DNA of 64,000 nt from Thermomicrobium sp. CFH 73360. Lineage in GTDB: Bacteria; Chloroflexota; Chloroflexia; Thermomicrobiales; Thermomicrobiaceae. Both the position numbers and the translations under genes were made by a program. Below are positions 6,646-15,731 of this stretch, in pieces. Numbering within the stretch: the stretch's first letter is position 1; each line of letters begins with the position of its first letter. The notes under the pieces were generated by a model. That model searched no databases. It saw only the letters and a list, made by a program, of their open reading frames with translations, and was not told the DNA's origin. The stretch is taken from contig NZ_JAMSLS010000001.1 of NCBI RefSeq assembly GCF_023806465.1, positions 686,636-750,635 on the forward strand, written 5' to 3'.

Positions 6646-6674
6646 TTGACACGTTGGCTTATTCGCCTTAATCT
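6646..6674 (+). promoter_or_regulatory. Sigma-70-type promoter of the PEP-utilising/biotin cluster
   Basis: A perfect -35 box TTGACA (6646-6651) and a TAATCT -10 box (6669-6674) are separated by exactly 17 bp. Transcription would start near 6681, leaving a ~245-nt leader before the first gene. A hairpin in this leader pairs 6748-6753 (GTGAAT) with 6771-6776 (ATTCAC) around an inner GCCT/AGGC stem. Confidence 0.75.
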
Positions 6675-6925
6675 TCATCTCTGAAGCTCAGTGGACGGGA
6701 TACGAGCAGTCGAGGCCGAATCCGCACCGCGACGGACTCGAGTGAACGTGAATCAGGCGCCTTGAGAGGCATTCACTGAGCGCTCATGGCAAGCCTCCAG
6801 AATTTCTGCAGCAATGCCGTTGCGGCTCATCGAGCGCACCACTGGAGCAAGAGCGGTAGAGATCCGGCCGAGGCGATATCCCGAACATGGGCACTGTGCA
6901 GCCGTGAGGAGAGCGGAGGTTATGC

Positions 6926-8740
6926 ATGAGCGGAACACTGCGCTTTCCGAGCCCATTCGAAGTTGAAACTCCAGCCGGCTGCGAGGGCTGGGAGGAAATG
7001 TACCCTGCGTACATGCGCTTTTCCGAAGCCCGTCGCGAATCAGAGGAGTCACGGCTCTGGTTCTATAACGGAATGCACTTTCCTGAACCCATTTCACCCT
7101 TCGACGTGATTACCGCCGAGGCGTTTTACATTGCAATAGGTGAGATGAACGCCCGCTTCTTTTGCATTCCCCCAGCGATGGGGGTCGACTTCCGGGTCCT
7201 CAACGGGTACGTCTACATCAGCGGCATTCCCGTCCTCGATCCCCAGAAGATTCAGGAACGCGTGGAACTGTTCCAACGCCGTGCCGGCCATTACTATGAG
7301 AACTGGAGCACGATCTACGAAGACTGGAAGCAGCGCGTCATTCATGAGATTGAGGCGCTGAAAGCGATCCGCTTCCCCCACTTGCCGGAGATCGAGCCGG
7401 AGGAACTCGTCTTCGCACATCGCGGCATCGGCACCTCGATGACGGTCTTCGAGAGCTATAACCGCGTCATCGAAAGCCTCTTCCGCATTGCCCAGATCCA
7501 CTGCGAGATCGTGATGATCGGTTTTGCCGCATACCTCACCTTCTATGACTTCTGCAAGCGCTACTTCCCGGAGATCCCGGATCAGCAGATCACCCTGATG
7601 GTTTCTGGTATCGACGTCAGCATGATGCGCCCCGACAAGGAACTCCGCACCCTCGCGCAGCGCGCTGTGGAACTCGGTCTCGTTGAGAAGTTCCGTGAAG
7701 GACGATCCTGGCGGGAGGTCTTCACGGATCTCGAGCAGCACGAGAACGGGCGTACTTGGCTGCAAGAGTGGAATGAGCGCGGCGAACCATGGTTCTGGAT
7801 CAACGCCGGTGACGGCCTCCAGCACCAGTTCCGCGCTTGGCGTGACGATCCGAGCCCAATCTTCCCAATCCTCATCGAATACGTGAAGCGAGTCGCACGC
7901 GGTGAGTCGATCGAGCGGGATACCTCCCAGGTGCGTGAGGAGCGAGATCGCATCACCGCCGAATATCGCGCCCTCCTCCCAAGTGAGGCCGACCGCCAGG
8001 CCTTCGATCAGCTCCTGGCGCTCGTACGTCAGGTGTATTACGCGATCGAGGATCACAAGTTCTGGGTCGACCACTGGTTCATGAGCGTCTGGTGGAATAA
8101 GCTGCGGGAGTTGGGCGTGCTTTTCGTCGAGCATGGCTTCTTCCGCGAGGTCGACGATCTCTTTTACTTGCATTGGACTGAGGTCAGCCAAGCGCTCACC
8201 GATCTCCTGCTTGGGTGGTCGATCGGCACCGAGCCCTATGGGCCGAAGCATTGGCCAGCAGTTATCGAACGGCGTAAAGCCATCTTGGCCAAGCTGCGCG
8301 CGTTTAATCCGCCGCCAGCCCTCGGGATCGTTCCGGAGCAGATCGCCGATCCAGCCATCGTGATGCTGTGGGGTATTACACCGGAACGCCTGCGTGCCTG
8401 GATCACCAAGGACGAAGGCAATCTCTTGCGCGGCTTCGCGGCCTCTCCAGGCATTGTCGAGGGGCCGGCCCGTGTGATCTTCGATGTCGCAGAGCTCAAG
8501 TCTGTTGAGGACGGCGAGATCCTCGTCTGCTCCGTCACCGAGCCAAGCTGGGCACCCGTCTTCGCCAAGGTCCGCGGCATCGTCACCGATATCGGTGGGG
8601 TCATGTCCCACGCGGCGATCGTCGCCCGCGAGTACAGCGTCCCTGCCGTTCTCGGCACTGGTGTGGCAACGAAGCGAATTCGAACAGGTCAGCGACTGCG
8701 TGTGGATGGAAACGAGGGGACGGTAACGCTTCTCGACTGA
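6926..8740 (+). CDS. PEP-utilising protein resembling phenylphosphate synthase subunit 1 (PpsA type)
   Basis: This 604-residue protein ends in a PEP-utilising mobile (swivelling) domain with the phospho-histidine motif GGVMSHAAIVARE; the His is residue 562. The N-terminal ~480 residues lack an ATP-grasp domain. They contain GCEGWEEMYPAY, WFYNGMHFPEPISPFD and RAGHYYENW, which fit my recollection of the 70-kDa subunit of phenylphosphate synthase from anaerobic phenol degradation. In that enzyme a second subunit supplies the ATP-binding half; no such gene is in this window. The protein could transfer phosphate to a phenol, enol or other hydroxyl substrate. The ATG at 6926 lies just after a GGAGG-containing site. 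It is the first gene of the cluster up to 13131. The actual substrate is unknown. Confidence 0.75.
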   Translation: MSGTLRFPSPFEVETPAGCEGWEEMYPAYMRFSEARRESEESRLWFYNGMHFPEPISPFDVITAEAFYIAIGEMNARFFCIPPAMGVDFRVLNGYVYISGIPVLDPQKIQERVELFQRRAGHYYENWSTIYEDWKQRVIHEIEALKAIRFPHLPEIEPEELVFAHRGIGTSMTVFESYNRVIESLFRIAQIHCEIVMIGFAAYLTFYDFCKRYFPEIPDQQITLMVSGIDVSMMRPDKELRTLAQRAVELGLVEKFREGRSWREVFTDLEQHENGRTWLQEWNERGEPWFWINAGDGLQHQFRAWRDDPSPIFPILIEYVKRVARGESIERDTSQVREERDRITAEYRALLPSEADRQAFDQLLALVRQVYYAIEDHKFWVDHWFMSVWWNKLRELGVLFVEHGFFREVDDLFYLHWTEVSQALTDLLLGWSIGTEPYGPKHWPAVIERRKAILAKLRAFNPPPALGIVPEQIADPAIVMLWGITPERLRAWITKDEGNLLRGFAASPGIVEGPARVIFDVAELKSVEDGEILVCSVTEPSWAPVFAKVRGIVTDIGGVMSHAAIVAREYSVPAVLGTGVATKRIRTGQRLRVDGNEGTVTLLD

Positions 8741-8839
8741 CCAGTGAGACCGACGCTCTCAGCTCCGCCACGGGCCGTCTCACGACGACCCCGTGGTTGT
8801 TGGTGCAGTACGCTCGGAAAGGAAACACGGGAGGAGCAG

Positions 8840-9403
8840 ATGGAACTGACACCTGAGGACGTGCAAGAGATTCTTCGAATCCTCGAGCAGTCTTCGTTTG
8901 ATGAACTCTACCTCGAGACACCACAGCTGAAACTAATCGTGCGCCGCGGACAGGGAAGCAGCACGACAGTTCCAGCTCCACCGGAAAATCCGGTGCACAC
9001 AGCGGAGACACGCTCCGAGCCTCCACGAGCGGCACCGGTCAGTGAGGCAACTGCCCAAGCCACGCCACCGACCGCCAAGCCAGACAAGCCGCCCCCAGCA
9101 TCAAAAGCGGCAGATCGCCTCATCCCAATCTCCGCACCGCTCAAGGGCATCTTCTATCGCGCGCCACGTCCCGGCGCTCCACCTTTCGTCGATATCGGGA
9201 GTTCTGTGCAGGAGGACACGGTGGTGGGCATTATCGAAGTGATGAAGCTCATGCACTCTGTCCTGGCTGGAGTCCACGGCGAGATTGTCGAAGTCTGCGC
9301 CGAGAACGGCCAGGCAGTCGACCGCGGCCAGCCGCTCTTCCTCGTTCGCCCGAGCGAAGATGCCAGCCCGTCGTCGGCACCAGACGCCTCTGAGGGAGCT
9401 TAG
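8840..9403 (+). CDS. Biotin carboxyl carrier protein (AccB-like)
   Basis: This 187-residue protein has an N-terminal helical AccB-like segment (MELTPEDVQEILRILEQS), a Pro/Ala/Thr-rich linker at about residues 42-92 and a C-terminal biotinyl domain. Lys136 in VIEVMKLMHS is the expected biotinylation site. The ATG at 8840 follows GAGGAG; an in-frame upstream extension lacks coding character. It sits 2 bp before a carboxyltransferase that has no biotin domain of its own, so the two probably form a carboxylase or decarboxylase. A second, housekeeping-type carrier is at 27415. No biotin carboxylase is visible in the window. Confidence 0.92.
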   Translation: MELTPEDVQEILRILEQSSFDELYLETPQLKLIVRRGQGSSTTVPAPPENPVHTAETRSEPPRAAPVSEATAQATPPTAKPDKPPPASKAADRLIPISAPLKGIFYRAPRPGAPPFVDIGSSVQEDTVVGIIEVMKLMHSVLAGVHGEIVEVCAENGQAVDRGQPLFLVRPSEDASPSSAPDASEGA

Positions 9404-9405
9404 TC

Positions 9406-10950
9406 ATGGCACCACGCATCCAGTTGATCGACGTGACACTCCGTGACGGGAACCAGAGTCTCTGGAGCGCGATCGGGATCGATACGCGGACAATCGTCGA
9501 CGTCGCCCCTTGGCTTGATCGAGCGGGTTTCAAATGCATCGACTTCACGACCAGCACCCACATGGCAATCAGCGTGCGCTATCACCGAGAAGACCCCTAT
9601 GAGAAGATCCGACTTGCCCGCCAGCTTCTGCCGAACACCCCTCTCATCTTTATGACCACCGGCATGCGTTTCATCACTTGGGAACCTGCGCCACGGGCCA
9701 TCATCCGCTTAGCGATGCGCATCATGGTCCGCCACGGCATTCGCCGCATTCAGATCGTTGAACCGATGAACAACATGAGTGCGCTCCTCGAGGCTGCCAG
9801 GATCGCGCGCGAGGAAGGAGCAGAACAGGTCGTCGCCGGACTCGTCTACAGTATCAGCCCAGTTCATACGGACGAGTTCTACGTCCGCTGCGCCGAGGAA
9901 CTCGCTCGGGAACGCCAACTTCTCGATACGGTTTACATCAAAGATCCCTCCGGACTTCTCACGCCAGAGCGGGTTGAGACGATCGTACCGGCACTCCGAC
10001 GAGCACTCGGTGACGATATGCCGCTTGAGATCCATTCACACTGCACCATGGGTATGGCACCCTTGTGTTACCTCCGCGCCGTGCAGCTGGGTGTTCAGAC
10101 AGTGCACACGGCCATCCCACCACTCGCCGAAGGCACCTCACTACCATCGATTTACCGGACAGTGGCCAACCTGCGGGAACTCGGCTTTGAGGTCGATATC
10201 GAGCTCGAACCGCTCACCGAGGTCTCCGAGTATCTCCAGCGTTTGGCACGCCGCAAGAAATTCCCGGTCGGACGCCCACTGGAATACGATGTCTCCTATT
10301 ATCGTCACCAGGTTCCTGGCGGGATGATCACGACTCTCCAACGACATCTGAGAGAGGTAGGAGCAGAACACCGTTTCGATGCAGTGCTGGAGGAGATTGT
10401 CCGGGTACGAGCGGAGCTCGGCTACCCGATCATGGTCACACCCTACTCGCAGCTCGTCGCCACCCAGGCACTCTTGAATATCGAATCACGTGAGCGCTAT
10501 GAGAAGGTGCCAGACGAGGTGATCAAGTACGTCCTTGGCCGCTTCGGCCCACCTCCTGCACCGATCGACCCTTGGGTGAAGGAACGTGTCCTCTCTCTCC
10601 CACGTGCGCGGGAACTCGACGTTCCTCTCCCCGAGCCGACTCTTGAGGAACTGCGGCGCACGTTCGGTGCGACCATCTCAGATGAGGAGCTCCTCCTACG
10701 GTGGGCCCTCCCGGGAGACCAGGTCGATGCGGCACTGGCCCGCAAGATGGGCCACCCTGCGCCGACCGGGAACAGCCTCACGCATCCGATCGCACAGCTC
10801 ATCGCCGAAGTCGCCCGGAAACCATCGATCAGCTACTTCCACCTCGAGAAGGACGGTTTTCGTCTTACGCTTCGCCGGCAGAACGGGCTGCCCCTGAGCG
10901 TACCAGCGTCGACGGAGGGGAGTGTCCCGCATGACCGTCACCCCGCGTGA
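9406..10950 (+). CDS. Biotin-dependent carboxyltransferase (PycB/oxaloacetate decarboxylase alpha-like)
   Basis: This 514-residue protein starts with the HMGL-like TIM-barrel signature IDVTLRDGNQSLW and carries the metal-binding HSHCTMG motif near residue 208. A conserved carboxylase (PYC_OADA-type) region follows, including YRHQVPGGM, GYPIMVTPYSQ and ATQALLNIE. The usual C-terminal biotin domain is missing and is supplied by the separate carrier immediately upstream. Family members move CO2 between carboxybiotin and pyruvate, oxaloacetate or similar keto acids. The neighbours (PEP-utilising kinase-like protein, HAD phosphatase, CoA ligase) suggest a more specialised role, but the substrate cannot be read from sequence. 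It overlaps the next gene by about 20 bp. Confidence 0.9.
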   Translation: MAPRIQLIDVTLRDGNQSLWSAIGIDTRTIVDVAPWLDRAGFKCIDFTTSTHMAISVRYHREDPYEKIRLARQLLPNTPLIFMTTGMRFITWEPAPRAIIRLAMRIMVRHGIRRIQIVEPMNNMSALLEAARIAREEGAEQVVAGLVYSISPVHTDEFYVRCAEELARERQLLDTVYIKDPSGLLTPERVETIVPALRRALGDDMPLEIHSHCTMGMAPLCYLRAVQLGVQTVHTAIPPLAEGTSLPSIYRTVANLRELGFEVDIELEPLTEVSEYLQRLARRKKFPVGRPLEYDVSYYRHQVPGGMITTLQRHLREVGAEHRFDAVLEEIVRVRAELGYPIMVTPYSQLVATQALLNIESRERYEKVPDEVIKYVLGRFGPPPAPIDPWVKERVLSLPRARELDVPLPEPTLEELRRTFGATISDEELLLRWALPGDQVDAALARKMGHPAPTGNSLTHPIAQLIAEVARKPSISYFHLEKDGFRLTLRRQNGLPLSVPASTEGSVPHDRHPA

Positions 10951-11788
10951 CCTGCTCCGTGTCCGTGCATTCGTGTTCGATGTCGACGGTACCCTGATCA
11001 TATCGGAGAGCGCTGATTGGAGCGGCGCGATTCCCTTACCTGGTGCAGTCGAACTCCTCACCTGGCTCAACCAGAACGGGTACCCGTTCGCACTCTTCAC
11101 CAGCGGGAGCACCGAACTCCCGGGGACATACGCTGCACGTCTGCGAGCAGCTGGACTTCCGGTGGCGGACTGGCAAGTGGTCACAACCGGAGTCACCGCA
11201 GCCGAGATCATCGCGACAGATTATCCGGGCCGCGCCGTTTTCGTCCTCGGGGAAAGAGGCACGCGGGAGCCACTTCAGGCCCGCGGGATCCCGGTCGTCG
11301 AGGGAGAGGACGGCAAGCACGCTGGCGTTGTCCTGGTTGGATGGAGTCGCTCGCTGACGTATGATCAACTTGACATCGCGTGCCGAGCCGTCTGGAACGG
11401 GGCCGATCTTCTGGTCACCTCGGCTGCTCGGGTGTTTGTCTCGAAGCAGGGGCTGCGGCCTGGCTGGTCATGGTCGATCGCAGTAGCGATCGCCGAAACG
11501 ACGGGGAAAGCGCCGCGTGTCGTCGGCAAACCATCGGTTGAGGCGCTTCGCGCCGTCGCTCGGCTCCTTGGGACCGTTCCAGCCGATGTCGCGGTCGTCG
11601 GTGACGATCCGGATCTTGAACTTCGGATGGGCCGGGAAGCCGGCTCGGTGACGATCCAGGTTCGAACCGGTCGGGGCAGCGAACCAATCGAGACCCCAGA
11701 GATCGGTAACCTGGTGCTCCGCGGTGTCGACGAGCTACTGGTGTTGCTCCAGGCGATTGGTGCGAAGGAGGATGCCCCGGACGAGTGA
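10931..11788 (+). CDS. HAD-superfamily phosphatase (NagD-like)
   Basis: This 285-residue hydrolase has motif I FVFDVDGTLI (nucleophile and acid Asp), motif II TSGST, and the C-terminal motif IV VVGDDPDLELRMGREAG. A large cap lies between motifs II and III, as in HAD type IIA (NagD/4-nitrophenylphosphatase) enzymes. A GTG at 10922 is possible, but the ATG at 10931 is better spaced from GGAGGGG. The start overlaps the carboxyltransferase gene and the stop overlaps the next GTG/ATG region, so it is translationally coupled within the cluster. It may dephosphorylate a cluster intermediate; that is inference. Confidence 0.85.
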   Translation: MTVTPRDLLRVRAFVFDVDGTLIISESADWSGAIPLPGAVELLTWLNQNGYPFALFTSGSTELPGTYAARLRAAGLPVADWQVVTTGVTAAEIIATDYPGRAVFVLGERGTREPLQARGIPVVEGEDGKHAGVVLVGWSRSLTYDQLDIACRAVWNGADLLVTSAARVFVSKQGLRPGWSWSIAVAIAETTGKAPRVVGKPSVEALRAVARLLGTVPADVAVVGDDPDLELRMGREAGSVTIQVRTGRGSEPIETPEIGNLVLRGVDELLVLLQAIGAKEDAPDE

Positions 11789-11799
11789 GGAGCTGGGCC

Positions 11800-13131
11800 A
11801 TGGCCGAGCGACGGTACTGGAATGAGGTCATGGAGACCATTGATCCAGAACATCTCTGGCAGCTGGAAGACGAGCGGCTCCGTTGGCAGCTCCGTTGGGT
11901 GTGGGAACGCTCGCCGTTTTACCGACAGAAGCTCAGCGAGGCCGGAATTGATCCACTGACGATTGGACGCGACTCGTTACATCAACTTCCATTCACCATC
12001 AAAGATGAGGTGCGACGCACACAGCAAGATTACCCACCGCTTGGCGGACATGCCTGTGTCCCATTGCATGAGGTTGTCCGGATCCATGCGTCCTCGGGGA
12101 CAACGGGTCAACCAACGCTCGTCGGATTGACTGAGGCAGATGCCAGAGCATGGAATGAGGTTCTTGCCCGATTCTTCTGGACCACCGGCGTGAGACCAGG
12201 AACACGTGTTTGGCTTGCAGTGACCTTGGGCTGGTACATCGCCGGACTGAGCTTCTACGAGGCACTTCGCACGATTCAGGCGACGGTCTATCCGGCCGGC
12301 ACGATGGAAGCCACACGAACCTTCAACGTGATCCAGCGGGCCGGGGTCGACTACATGGTCTCAAGCCCCACCTTCGTCAACTTCCTCACTCATGTCGCCC
12401 GCGAGCGGCTCGGGATTGATCCGGCCTCGCTCGGCATCAAAGCGATGGCGTTGGGTGGCGAGCCTGGAGCTGGTGTCCCCCAAATCCGCCAGCAGATCGA
12501 GGAAACCTGGGGCTGCAAGGTCTACGACGCGATGGGAACTGCAGACTTCGCACCGATCCTTTGGACGGAGTGCGAAGCACAGGCCGGCATGCATTTCGTC
12601 GGACAAGGCTTCGTGATCGCCGAGTTCATCGAACCCGAGACCGGTCATCCGATCGAGCCGAAGGAAGGAATGCTGGCTGAACTCGTCTACACGGCAATCC
12701 AACGCGAGTGTGTCCCACTGATTCGCTTTCGAATTGGCGATCTCGTACGAATTGAGGGAACAGGGCGATGTGAATGCGGCCGTACTGGGATCCGGATCCG
12801 CTGCGTCGGCCGTGTCGATGACATGTTTATCGTCCGCGGCGTGAACGTCTTCCCCAGTGCGGTCGCTGACGTCATCGCCTCCTTCCGCCCGCGCGTCACC
12901 GGTGAATTCCAGATCCGGTTGCCAGCCCGCGGGCTGCCTATTGATCCCCCTGTCCCCATCGTCGTAGAGCTCGGCCCGGAGCCCGGTGACCTGCACAAGC
13001 TCAAGCGGGATCTCGAAGAGGCGATCCGTGCCCAGCTCATCTTCCGTGCTGCCGTCCAACTCGTTCCCAAAGGGGAACTCACACCAACTGGCACGATGAA
13101 GCGTCAAGTTATCGTCCGCAGTGAAGCATAA
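11800..13131 (+). CDS. Phenylacetate-CoA ligase-like adenylate-forming enzyme (PaaK family)
   Basis: This 443-residue protein has the PaaK-type layout. The N-terminal motif SPFYRQKLSEAGI is typical of the family. The P-loop ASSGTTGQPTLVGLT binds AMP, YDAMGTADFAPI precedes an ECEAQAGMH segment, and the C-terminal region CECGRTG...GRVDDMFIVRGVNVFPSAV belongs to the small domain. It would activate an aromatic or related carboxylic acid to its CoA thioester with ATP. The ATG at 11800 has a GAGGAG site 7 bp upstream; a GTG at 11785 is less likely. As the last gene of the cluster, it suggests that the product of the upstream enzymes is a carboxylic acid that is then CoA-activated. Confidence 0.88.
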   Translation: MAERRYWNEVMETIDPEHLWQLEDERLRWQLRWVWERSPFYRQKLSEAGIDPLTIGRDSLHQLPFTIKDEVRRTQQDYPPLGGHACVPLHEVVRIHASSGTTGQPTLVGLTEADARAWNEVLARFFWTTGVRPGTRVWLAVTLGWYIAGLSFYEALRTIQATVYPAGTMEATRTFNVIQRAGVDYMVSSPTFVNFLTHVARERLGIDPASLGIKAMALGGEPGAGVPQIRQQIEETWGCKVYDAMGTADFAPILWTECEAQAGMHFVGQGFVIAEFIEPETGHPIEPKEGMLAELVYTAIQRECVPLIRFRIGDLVRIEGTGRCECGRTGIRIRCVGRVDDMFIVRGVNVFPSAVADVIASFRPRVTGEFQIRLPARGLPIDPPVPIVVELGPEPGDLHKLKRDLEEAIRAQLIFRAAVQLVPKGELTPTGTMKRQVIVRSEA

Positions 13132-13529: not shown

Positions 13530-14498
13530 TCAGCCTGCCAATGCACGCTTCAGCACTGCCAAAACCTCCCCACTCGCTCTCTGGCTGATCCAGGCTGAAG
13601 GCGCAAAGGCATCGAAGCCATGAAACGCACCAGCATAGACGTGGAGTTCCGTTGGCACCCCCGCCTGCATCAACCGCTGCGCATAGACTATGTCTTCGTC
13701 GCGAAAGAGGTCGGCGGTCCCAACCATGATGTACGCGGGCGGCAATCCCGCCAGAATCTCCGCACGGGCTGGTGCCGCATAGGCCGGAATATCGGAACTC
13801 CCCGGCTCACAGCCCAAATAGGCTTGCCAACCGATCTGGTTCCACTCCCGCGTCCAGATCAGTCGTCGGTCGGTGATCTCACGGCTTGACGGAGTCTCAT
13901 TCCGGTCATCAAGCATTGGGTAGATCAGCAGTTGAAAACGTATCGTGAACTCACCCCGATCACGCACCAGAAGTGCGAGTGCTGCGGCGAGCCCACCGCC
14001 GGCACTCGCCCCAGCGATCGCGATTCGCTGGGGATCAACGCCAAGGTCCGCTGCCCGCCGAACAAGCCAATGCAGCGCTGCGTAGCAGTCCTCGAGTGGT
14101 GCCGGGTAGGGATGCTCCGGTGCAAGCCGGTAATCGACCGAGGCAACCAGAGCGGGCAACGTGTGGGCGAACCCCGCACACTGCAAATCGTTCATCTCCG
14201 GCGAGCCCATCACGTACCCACCACCATGGATCCAGAGGAGCGCCGGAAGCGGTCCGCGCAACCCTGCCGGACGATAGAGGCGCACACGGACGGCTGTACC
14301 GTCCTTTACATTTGACGCGAACTCATCTGTGATCGCAACGTCGGACGGTAGTGGTGGAGCGAGTTGGGCAAGCGTCTCGCGCAGGACCGCAAGTCGTTGA
14401 CGCGCCAGAGGAATGTCACGAAGATCCAGTAAGAACTCTTCCGGTACTGCCGCGAGCGCCTCAGCAAGTTCCGGATCGAGCCGGTCCAGGACAGACAT
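13530..14498 (-). CDS. Alpha/beta-hydrolase esterase, hormone-sensitive-lipase family
   Basis: The 322-residue enzyme has the HSL-family oxyanion motif HGGG (residues 91-94). The nucleophile is Ser165 in GASAGG, with the likely triad partners Asp263 (TADLFRDED) and His293 (AFHGF). Members hydrolyse short-chain esters, including aryl esters. The longer frame starts at 14597, but the ATG at 14498 has a GAGGTG site 6 bp upstream and gives the usual N-terminus. No signal peptide is seen, so it is cytoplasmic. Its natural substrate is unknown. Confidence 0.9.
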   Translation of the reverse strand: MSVLDRLDPELAEALAAVPEEFLLDLRDIPLARQRLAVLRETLAQLAPPLPSDVAITDEFASNVKDGTAVRVRLYRPAGLRGPLPALLWIHGGGYVMGSPEMNDLQCAGFAHTLPALVASVDYRLAPEHPYPAPLEDCYAALHWLVRRAADLGVDPQRIAIAGASAGGGLAAALALLVRDRGEFTIRFQLLIYPMLDDRNETPSSREITDRRLIWTREWNQIGWQAYLGCEPGSSDIPAYAAPARAEILAGLPPAYIMVGTADLFRDEDIVYAQRLMQAGVPTELHVYAGAFHGFDAFAPSAWISQRASGEVLAVLKRALAG

Positions 14499-14849
14499 CG
14501 CTGCACCTCGCTTCGCCTGAACATCACTGACGCCTGGAACCTCCTGCACCACCGGTTGGTCCGCAAGGAGTGCCCAGCTGTGTAGGTCATCCGGCACCGA
14601 TCACACGTCGCGTGCCAGTCATCCTGGGACCATCACGCGTTTCAGTAAATCCCCACACTTCTTCACCGGTTCGGCGTTCTGGAGTCGACTTTCTCCCATG
14701 TCGTCAGGGGTACCCAAGCACCTCATGTGGCTCGCGTCTACCTCTTCACCCACTGCTCCCCCGACGCTCCGTGCACGGCTCCGGCCAGGCGACAGCAACC
14801 AGGAGCATGAGCACATGTAGCCTGACCGTCCTACGCTATGGCTAACGCC
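14499..14849. other. Gene-free gap between esterase and dioxygenase
   Basis: About 350 bp upstream of the esterase start. Short frames here lack coding character. No promoter-quality match was found by eye. Confidence 0.5.
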
Positions 14850-15731
14850 TCAAGTGTGACTTGACTGAATCGGTTCAAAAGCTGCGACAATCATGCTGTA
14901 GTAGCTCGGTGCCTCGTAGCAGAGCACCTCACCACGCAGTGGCACTCGTCGCATGATCCCGGCGAGCATTAGTGTCTGCCACAAACCGTCAATGGCGGCA
15001 TTCGTCGCCTGCTCGTCCGGAAGATCGATTAGCCGACCAGGATCGTTTGCCCGAAGCGCTTCAACAACGAGCTGGTCGACCACTGCTGCATCCGGGTGGA
15101 AGCCATACGGGCCGTCTGCCCGATGTGTATGCGCCCAGTCGCAGCTCGCGATAAAGGCGATCCGTCGCCCGTCACGTTCGGCCGCCAACGCCACTGCCTC
15201 GCCGAACGTCACCAGGAGCTCCCGCGCGACACGTCGCGATGGCGTCACGATCACGACCGGCGGGCCGCTGTTCTCTTCGGGCGGCGGCGCAAGGACGTCC
15301 CCATACCCAACTAGATTGCGCCCGTGACCAAGAAACCAAAGTGGAGTCATGGTCCCCCAGTCGAGCGGAATCACTGATTGGTCCCAACGATTTCCGGCAA
15401 ATCCGGCCAGTGCGATCGGTACCCCGAGTTCACGCGCCGCAGCAGCGATCCCCTCCGTGGCCACACGATCCAGTGGCACATTCATCTCAATCTGCCGCCC
15501 ATGCCAGCGTAACGTTCCCGCACCGCGCGCTGTGTAGGCTAGGCAAACCATGCCGTCCACGCGGACTCCGTGCGGCGTGGCCACCACCAGGACATCTGGC
15601 CGGGCAGCGGCGCAACGCTCTCCCAGTTGGAACATCGCAGCGCGCGTTTGGAGACCACCCTCCGCATCCGCAGAGAGTTCCGGGATAATTGGAAAACCGT
15701 GGGGGGCAACCGCTCCGAAAACGATTCCCAT
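14850..15731 (-). CDS. Class III extradiol ring-cleavage dioxygenase, LigB-type subunit
   Basis: This 293-residue protein belongs to the LigB/DODA-like superfamily. Characteristic His-containing segments are APHGFP near residue 10, ATPHGVRVDG near 55, and the C-terminal ASCDWAHTHRADGPYGFHPDA, which supply the non-haem iron ligands and acid-base residues. Enzymes of this family cleave catechol-type rings next to the hydroxyls; some relatives have other roles. The ATG at 15731 is preceded by GAGAGGAG. It has no LigA-like partner here. Its nearness to the PaaK-like and phenylphosphate-synthase-like genes hints at aromatic metabolism, but they are on opposite strands and not one operon. Confidence 0.8.
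   Translation of the reverse strand: MGIVFGAVAPHGFPIIPELSADAEGGLQTRAAMFQLGERCAAARPDVLVVATPHGVRVDGMVCLAYTARGAGTLRWHGRQIEMNVPLDRVATEGIAAAARELGVPIALAGFAGNRWDQSVIPLDWGTMTPLWFLGHGRNLVGYGDVLAPPPEENSGPPVVIVTPSRRVARELLVTFGEAVALAAERDGRRIAFIASCDWAHTHRADGPYGFHPDAAVVDQLVVEALRANDPGRLIDLPDEQATNAAIDGLWQTLMLAGIMRRVPLRGEVLCYEAPSYYSMIVAAFEPIQSSHT

Follow-up and report, generated by a model that had tools for sequence, protein, structure and literature searches.

What chemistry is encoded by five closely packed genes in a 64,000-nucleotide stretch of the Thermomicrobium sp. CFH 73360 genome (hereafter the window), and where would the partners that they seem to need come from? A sequence-only reading had assigned the open reading frames (ORFs) at positions 6926-13131 of the forward strand, behind a promoter from 6646, to a phosphoenolpyruvate (PEP)-utilising kinase-like protein, a biotin carrier, a carboxyltransferase, a haloacid dehalogenase (HAD) phosphatase and a CoA ligase, had ordered their action as phosphorylation, biotin-linked carboxylation, dephosphorylation and CoA thioester formation, and knew no described pathway with exactly this set. 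All five ORFs and their identities held up on the + strand and the order of steps is supported by what follows, but the set, its ligase type excepted, is that of the described Hpe/Acv pathway (PMC9618137). The cluster very probably forms the central operon of an Hpe-type pathway that degrades 4-hydroxyaryl methyl ketones, with 4-hydroxyacetophenone or acetovanillone as its likely substrate. Its genes are as follows.

6926..8740, + strand: HpeH1, alpha subunit of a two-part aromatic kinase of the PpsA/CreH/HpeH family (604 aa; PF00391; NF006151, 1221 bits; fold match to residues 313-867 of the rifampin phosphotransferase Rph-Lm)
8840..9403, + strand: HpeC, biotin carboxyl carrier protein (PF00364; EVMKLM biotinylation motif)
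9406..10950, + strand: HpeB, carboxyltransferase of an Hpe/Acv carboxylase (HMGL-like and PYC_OADA domains; placed by tree and fold)
10931..11788, + strand: HpeD, HAD-IIA (NagD-type) phosphatase (PF13344/PF13242; alternative GTG start at 10922)
11800..13131, + strand: PaaK-type AMP-forming CoA ligase, proposed replacement for HpeE (PF00501/PF14535; relatives among phenylacetate-CoA ligases; alternative GTG start at 11785)

The genes are spaced by 99, 2, -20 and 11 nucleotides, and the ATG start of HpeC at 8840 is backed by orthologues. The sequence-only reading had left its proposal open to refutation by a lack of synteny in relatives; the five-gene order in fact recurs in five further genomes from this family (G006, G001, G002, G007 and G012), with carboxyltransferases 74-97% identical, so the arrangement is not due to chance. 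The nearest named carriers are Bacterium HR28, Thermomicrobium sp. SKW109 and Sphaerobacter sp. HOG56, and the distribution is patchy, with the cluster present in 6 of 158 genomes of the class. In the Sphaerobacter relatives G007 and G012 the genes form one contiguous run, HpeH2-HpeI-HpeH1-HpeC-HpeB-HpeD-PaaK-HpeF.

The point of reference is the Hpe (hydroxyphenylethanone) pathway for lignin-type hydroxyacetophenones in Rhodococcus rhodochrous GD02 (hpeHICBADEF), published in 2022, in which HpeHI phosphorylates acetovanillone and 4-hydroxyacetophenone, HpeCBA carboxylates the phosphorylated ketones only and HpeD dephosphorylates the product, these kinase, carboxylase and phosphatase steps having been assayed with enzymes; proposed roles for HpeE and HpeF are CoA ester formation and acetyl-CoA release, respectively (PMC9618137). 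Thermomicrobium shares with GD02 a two-part PEP-synthase-like kinase, a probable three-part biotin carboxylase, a NagD-type phosphatase, a CoA ligase and an HpeF-type hydrolase. The same set, in the order HpeH-I-C-A-B-D-ligase-F, is present in Rhizobium leguminosarum pRlBT01c and, as read by tblastn, in Rhodococcus sp. JS3073; the latter cluster holds the eight gene kinds published for GD02, and the proteins of the window and of a second Thermomicrobium contig, C23, are 36-55% identical to it. Unlike GD02, which has a single operon and an AcsA-type HpeE, this thermophilic member of the Chloroflexota spreads the genes over three contigs, has a PaaK-type ligase and encodes a single kinase beta subunit alongside two alpha subunits. 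Homologous systems, likened here by description, are AcvA-F of Sphingobium lignivorans SYK-6, with a syntenous kinase, carboxylase and phosphatase, and XccABC of Aromatoleum aromaticum EbN1, which acts on 4-hydroxyacetophenone, is homologous to HpeCBA and is clustered with hpeHI homologues; mixed hpe sets occur in diverse bacteria (PMC9618137). The last steps in SYK-6 are carried out by VceA/VceB, unlike those of Thermomicrobium, and XccABC sits in an anaerobic p-ethylphenol pathway.

HpeH1 carries the mobile His domain PF00391 alone, at its C-terminus, and PF01326 is absent from the protein; its His562, in GGVMSHAAIVARE, is invariant among 31 relatives. It scores 1221 bits to its own NCBIfam family, the uncharacterised PRK08296.1-3, and is 45% identical to HpeH of the JS3073 hpe cluster. 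The expectation that a PpsB-like subunit and a biotin carboxylase would be encoded outside the cluster is supported: searches with PF01326 and for biotin carboxylase placed the two next to each other on contig C23 of this genome (about 40-44.6 kb), together with a paralogous alpha subunit, HpeH2, that is 64.6% identical to HpeH1. The PpsB-like subunit, HpeI, has the ATP-binding PPDK_N domain and is 43% identical to its JS3073 counterpart; both components of the kinase are present, HpeH1 in the window and HpeI with HpeH2 on C23. In a survey of 25 genomes, HpeI (at least 53% identity, more than 370 bits) accompanied the carboxyltransferase in all six of its carriers. The 13 other high-quality genomes lack HpeI and hold at best distant homologues below 230 bits, and one genome that is 62% complete has HpeI but yielded no carboxyltransferase. 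HpeH1 and HpeH2 form a sister pair whose split predates the divergence of Sphaerobacter and Thermomicrobium. In G001, HpeH2 lies in two overlapping frames (C6:315005-316815), reflecting a frameshift or an assembly error.

The sequence-only reading had allowed that HpeH1 might group with rifampin phosphotransferase (Rph). The AlphaFold model of HpeH1 (predicted local distance difference test score, pLDDT, 84; predicted template modelling score, pTM, 0.89) aligns over residues 14-604 to residues 316-867 of Rph (5fbt), with Z 23.0 and a root-mean-square deviation of 3.9 over 479 residues at 20% identity. The matched part comprises the rifampin-binding (substrate) and His domains and leaves out the N-terminal ATP domain; HpeH and HpeI consequently resemble a split Rph, in which the missing domain would be supplied by HpeI, whereas in Rph itself the ATP domain is part of a single chain. 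Essentially only Rph spans the N-terminal 490 residues in the VIA-align list, where most rows match the His domain alone, and other relatives are possible. Membership of the Rph family was rejected, at 133 bits against a cut-off of 999 (NF041857) and with the ATP domain in another chain, and Rph was kept as a structural analogue.

The carboxyltransferase and biotin carrier belong with those of Hpe/Acv clusters by identity, the carboxyltransferase also by tree. HpeB is 46-48% identical to carboxyltransferases of hpe/acv clusters (46% to that of JS3073) versus 31% to a pyruvate-type enzyme, and HpeC is 55% identical to JS3073 HpeC over the biotinyl domain. In a tree made by a quick method, with Shimodaira-Hasegawa-like approximate likelihood ratio supports only, the Thermomicrobia carboxyltransferases form one clade (support 100) inside the kinase-linked group (95 and 99), away from both the pyruvate-type enzymes and the Caballeronia and Cnuibacter relatives that have no kinase nearby. 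The Hpe signature RDGNQSLW, TTGMRF and KDPSGLL replaces the GGATFD, RGQN and KDMAG of pyruvate carboxylase in HpeB, and the metal and lysine residues D14, K179, H210 and H212 are kept and invariant across 35 sequences. The predicted fold (pLDDT 89) is of the transcarboxylase 5S/OadA type. The C23 biotin carboxylase, which probably completes the enzyme as HpeA, is 47% identical to its JS3073 counterpart; in the Sphaerobacter type of arrangement a biotin carboxylase lies about 2.5 kb upstream of the gene run, and the G007 copy is 66% identical to that of C23. The published description of GD02 (Table 1 and text) gives HpeA, the biotin carboxylase, as 57.4 kDa and HpeB, the carboxyltransferase, as 49.3 kDa, the reverse of the usual sizes, and the two labels may have been exchanged there (PMC9618137).

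A profile search of genome contigs returned 430 carboxyltransferase relatives, of which 80 were kept; 77 of these lie outside the Thermomicrobia. An HpeD-like HAD protein is nearby in at least 60 of these 77 loci and a kinase of HpeHI or Tm-1 type in at least 59 (37 with both HpeHI subunits, 22 with a Tm-1-like protein instead), and the ligase on the same strand is AcsA-type in at least 31 and PaaK-type in at least one (L126); contig ends truncate many of the loci, so that all these counts are minimum values. The Tm-1-like ATP-binding protein stands in the place expected for HpeHI in many Hpe-like carboxylase clusters (L040, L041, L051, L053 and others), including those on plasmids of Sphingomonas bisphenolicum AO1 and P. 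putida YC-AE1, and may be a candidate one-piece kinase such as MarK. The Caballeronia and Cnuibacter relatives (L045, L046) have a biotin carrier and a biotin carboxylase with no kinase or phosphatase nearby, and the Cnuibacter locus also holds a CoA transferase and a thiolase; they are possibly biotin-dependent carboxylases of non-phenolic ketones.

HpeD is 36-37% identical to HpeD of the JS3073 (36%) and Rhizobium clusters and keeps the FDVDGT and GDD motifs of a NagD-type phosphatase. No orthologue of the AcsA-type ligase HpeE was found in the genome, where the best match is 28% identical (28-30% at best across these genomes), and a PaaK-type ligase occupies its place. Given this absence, the CoA step would most naturally fall to the PaaK ligase, which stands where hpeE is expected. 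SYK-6 is likewise without HpeE (PMC9618137), so that HpeE is no defining feature of the pathway overall. An HpeF-like amidohydrolase is encoded on a third contig, C35, and is 81% identical to a Sphaerobacter gene that lies directly 3' of PaaK and is itself 44% identical to the gene that takes the hpeF position in JS3073. DesA/LigM-like O-demethylase and HpaB-like genes are also present in the genome, and in Sphaerobacter HpaB and HpaD genes lie about 10 kb upstream of the biotin carboxylase, an aromatic setting.

Homology, gene order and co-occurrence suggest the following route in Thermomicrobium sp. CFH 73360. HpeI would take a phosphate from ATP and pass it through His562 of HpeH1 to the phenolic hydroxyl of a 4-hydroxyacetophenone-type ketone. 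A biotin carboxylase, probably that of C23, would charge the biotin on HpeC, from which HpeB would transfer the carboxyl group to the ketone's methyl carbon, turning the phospho-ketone into a phospho-aroylacetate. HpeD would then remove the phosphate, the PaaK-type ligase would form the aroylacetyl-CoA, and the HpeF-type amidohydrolase of C35 would cleave this to 4-hydroxybenzoate (or vanillate) and acetyl-CoA.

Two elements upstream of HpeH1 bear on its expression.

6646..6674, + strand: putative promoter, TTGACA (6646-6651), 17 nucleotides, TAATCT (6669-6674); kept upstream of the orthologous gene in G006, G001 and G002
6673..6686, + strand: perfect dyad CTTCA-N4-TGAAG at the -10/+1 region, a putative operator; arms kept and spacer varied in four genomes

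Both stand out as conserved against diverging flanks in four Thermomicrobium-group genomes, with a -10 box of TATCTT in two of the four, and the dyad pattern matches once in the 64-kb window versus 0.05 matches expected. The strong promoter first proposed at this site stands on genome comparison only, being kept upstream of the orthologues in three other genomes, while a sigma-70 consensus scan called no promoter at 6646. An operator shared by the scattered loci was considered and rejected, as no such dyad was found when the HpeH2-HpeI, HpeF and HpeH3 (see below) loci were compared.

Several observations weigh against an Hpe-type pathway. Its genes are split over three contigs (the window, C23 and C35), and the dyad upstream of HpeH1 was not found at the other loci compared. 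The C23 biotin carboxylase has orthologues in G004 and G008, relatives without the carboxyltransferase, and may serve another carboxylase; HpeA is the least certain assignment, since this protein is not restricted to genomes that carry the carboxyltransferase. The draft genome G002 yielded no HpeF, and no PobA was found in the Thermomicrobium genome itself, which bears on the fate of 4-hydroxybenzoate. The comparison sequences were the JS3073 and Rhizobium clusters, as stand-ins for GD02, SYK-6 and EbN1 themselves. On clustering more generally, a 2026 paper reports kinase and carboxylase genes together in only 52 of 836 cases (PMC13101465).

Three other explanations differ widely in probability. 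There is a smaller, though still appreciable, chance that the same chemistry acts on another phenolic ketone (a longer aryl ketone, acetosyringone, or a ketone released when bisphenol-type compounds or plant polyphenols are broken down), with HpeH1 and HpeH2 specialised for different substrates: the Thermomicrobia carboxyltransferases form a separate deep clade on a long stem, the two alpha subunits predate the Sphaerobacter-Thermomicrobium split, and related carboxylases, with the Tm-1-like protein replacing HpeHI, reside on the AO1 and YC-AE1 plasmids. The published Hpe enzymes, however, accept 4-hydroxyacetophenone and acetovanillone (PMC9618137), and nothing points to one particular alternative. 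It is improbable that the kinase activates phenol or cresol in the manner of PpsAB (Thauera) or CreHI (Corynebacterium), with the carboxylase, phosphatase and ligase belonging to an unrelated pathway. These systems likewise combine a catalytic-His alpha subunit with a separate ATP-binding subunit, and HpeH and HpeI are homologous to them (PMC9618137); homologues of PpsA and PpsB are accordingly present in Thermomicrobium, a homology shared with HpeHI and CreHI and therefore not discriminating, and the alpha subunits alone, at about 45-50% identity throughout, cannot separate substrates. PpsAB and CreHI, however, have no linked biotin carboxylase, NagD-type phosphatase or PaaK, and phenylphosphate is carboxylated by an unrelated enzyme (PMC9618137), whereas HpeH1 adjoins the biotin carrier, carboxyltransferase, HAD phosphatase and PaaK in all six genomes and HpeI tracks the carboxyltransferase across genomes. 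Very improbable, and the least likely of the three, is an anaplerotic or decarboxylating enzyme of pyruvate carboxylase or oxaloacetate decarboxylase type among unrelated neighbours: the Pfam PYC_OADA and HMGL-like domains and a fold like that of transcarboxylase 5S, OadA and pyruvate carboxylase would fit it, but HpeB falls below the NCBIfam cut-offs (330 versus 402 for pyruvate carboxylase B; 287 versus 756.5 for OadA), and scores, replaced substrate motifs and tree placement together led us to reject these functions.

If the cluster belongs to an Hpe-type pathway, the pathway as such is already known; what is new is the lineage, the duplicated kinase alpha subunit with one beta subunit, PaaK in place of HpeE, the split layout, the conserved promoter with its dyad, and a further HpeH, the third, that has a phosphatase and a DesA/LigM-like O-demethylase as neighbours. 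Our literature search returned no paper joining Thermomicrobia with acetovanillone or Sphaerobacter with phenylphosphate.

The third HpeH (HpeH3) lies with a second HpeD-like HAD protein and a DesA/LigM-like folate-dependent aryl O-demethylase on contig C34 of the same genome (about 88.0-92.3 kb; L028 7994-12257). Further HpeH3 loci are L151 (4448-8781) and L154 (7374-11649); the trio is whole in two genomes, and L154 has HpeH3 and the O-demethylase with a gap between them. The O-demethylase scores 575 bits to SyrngDmethDesA (cut-off 800) and 511 to LigM (cut-off 580), and the locus has no HpeI of its own. This gene content suggests that phosphorylation is linked to O-demethylation, and we tentatively propose that one single-copy HpeI serves interchangeable HpeH1, HpeH2 and HpeH3 and that phosphorylation may also prime folate-dependent O-demethylation of methoxyphenols. 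We know of no description of such priming.

Two further gene groups were observed. Just 3' of the operon (13530-15731, - strand), an alpha/beta hydrolase (LipP1-like) and a LigB-family protein (TK2203-like) form a pair that is similarly placed in G006 and apparently not in G001, and so probably lies outside the operon. A second, distant PPDK_N and PEP-utiliser pair on C23 (about 88.5-97 kb; L027 6457-14872) is clustered with a fumarylacetoacetate (FAA) hydrolase, CoxM/CoxL-type molybdenum hydroxylase genes, an antibiotic biosynthesis (ABM) monooxygenase and a DUF4202-like protein, and is possibly another aromatic kinase system.

An Hpe-type pathway in this organism would carry an aerobic carboxylating route for aromatics beyond the mesophilic Rhodococcus and Sphingobium in which it has been tested to date and into thermophilic Chloroflexota, and would be a possible source of a heat-stable kinase and carboxylase for acetovanillone-rich lignin streams. 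It indicates that the pathway can be recognised even when its genes are scattered, and suggests a second solution to the ligase step. The family also offers a natural test case of one kinase beta subunit working with several alpha subunits; if the sharing of HpeI proposed above is true, HpeI would be the core of a modular phospho-aromatic hub in the genome.

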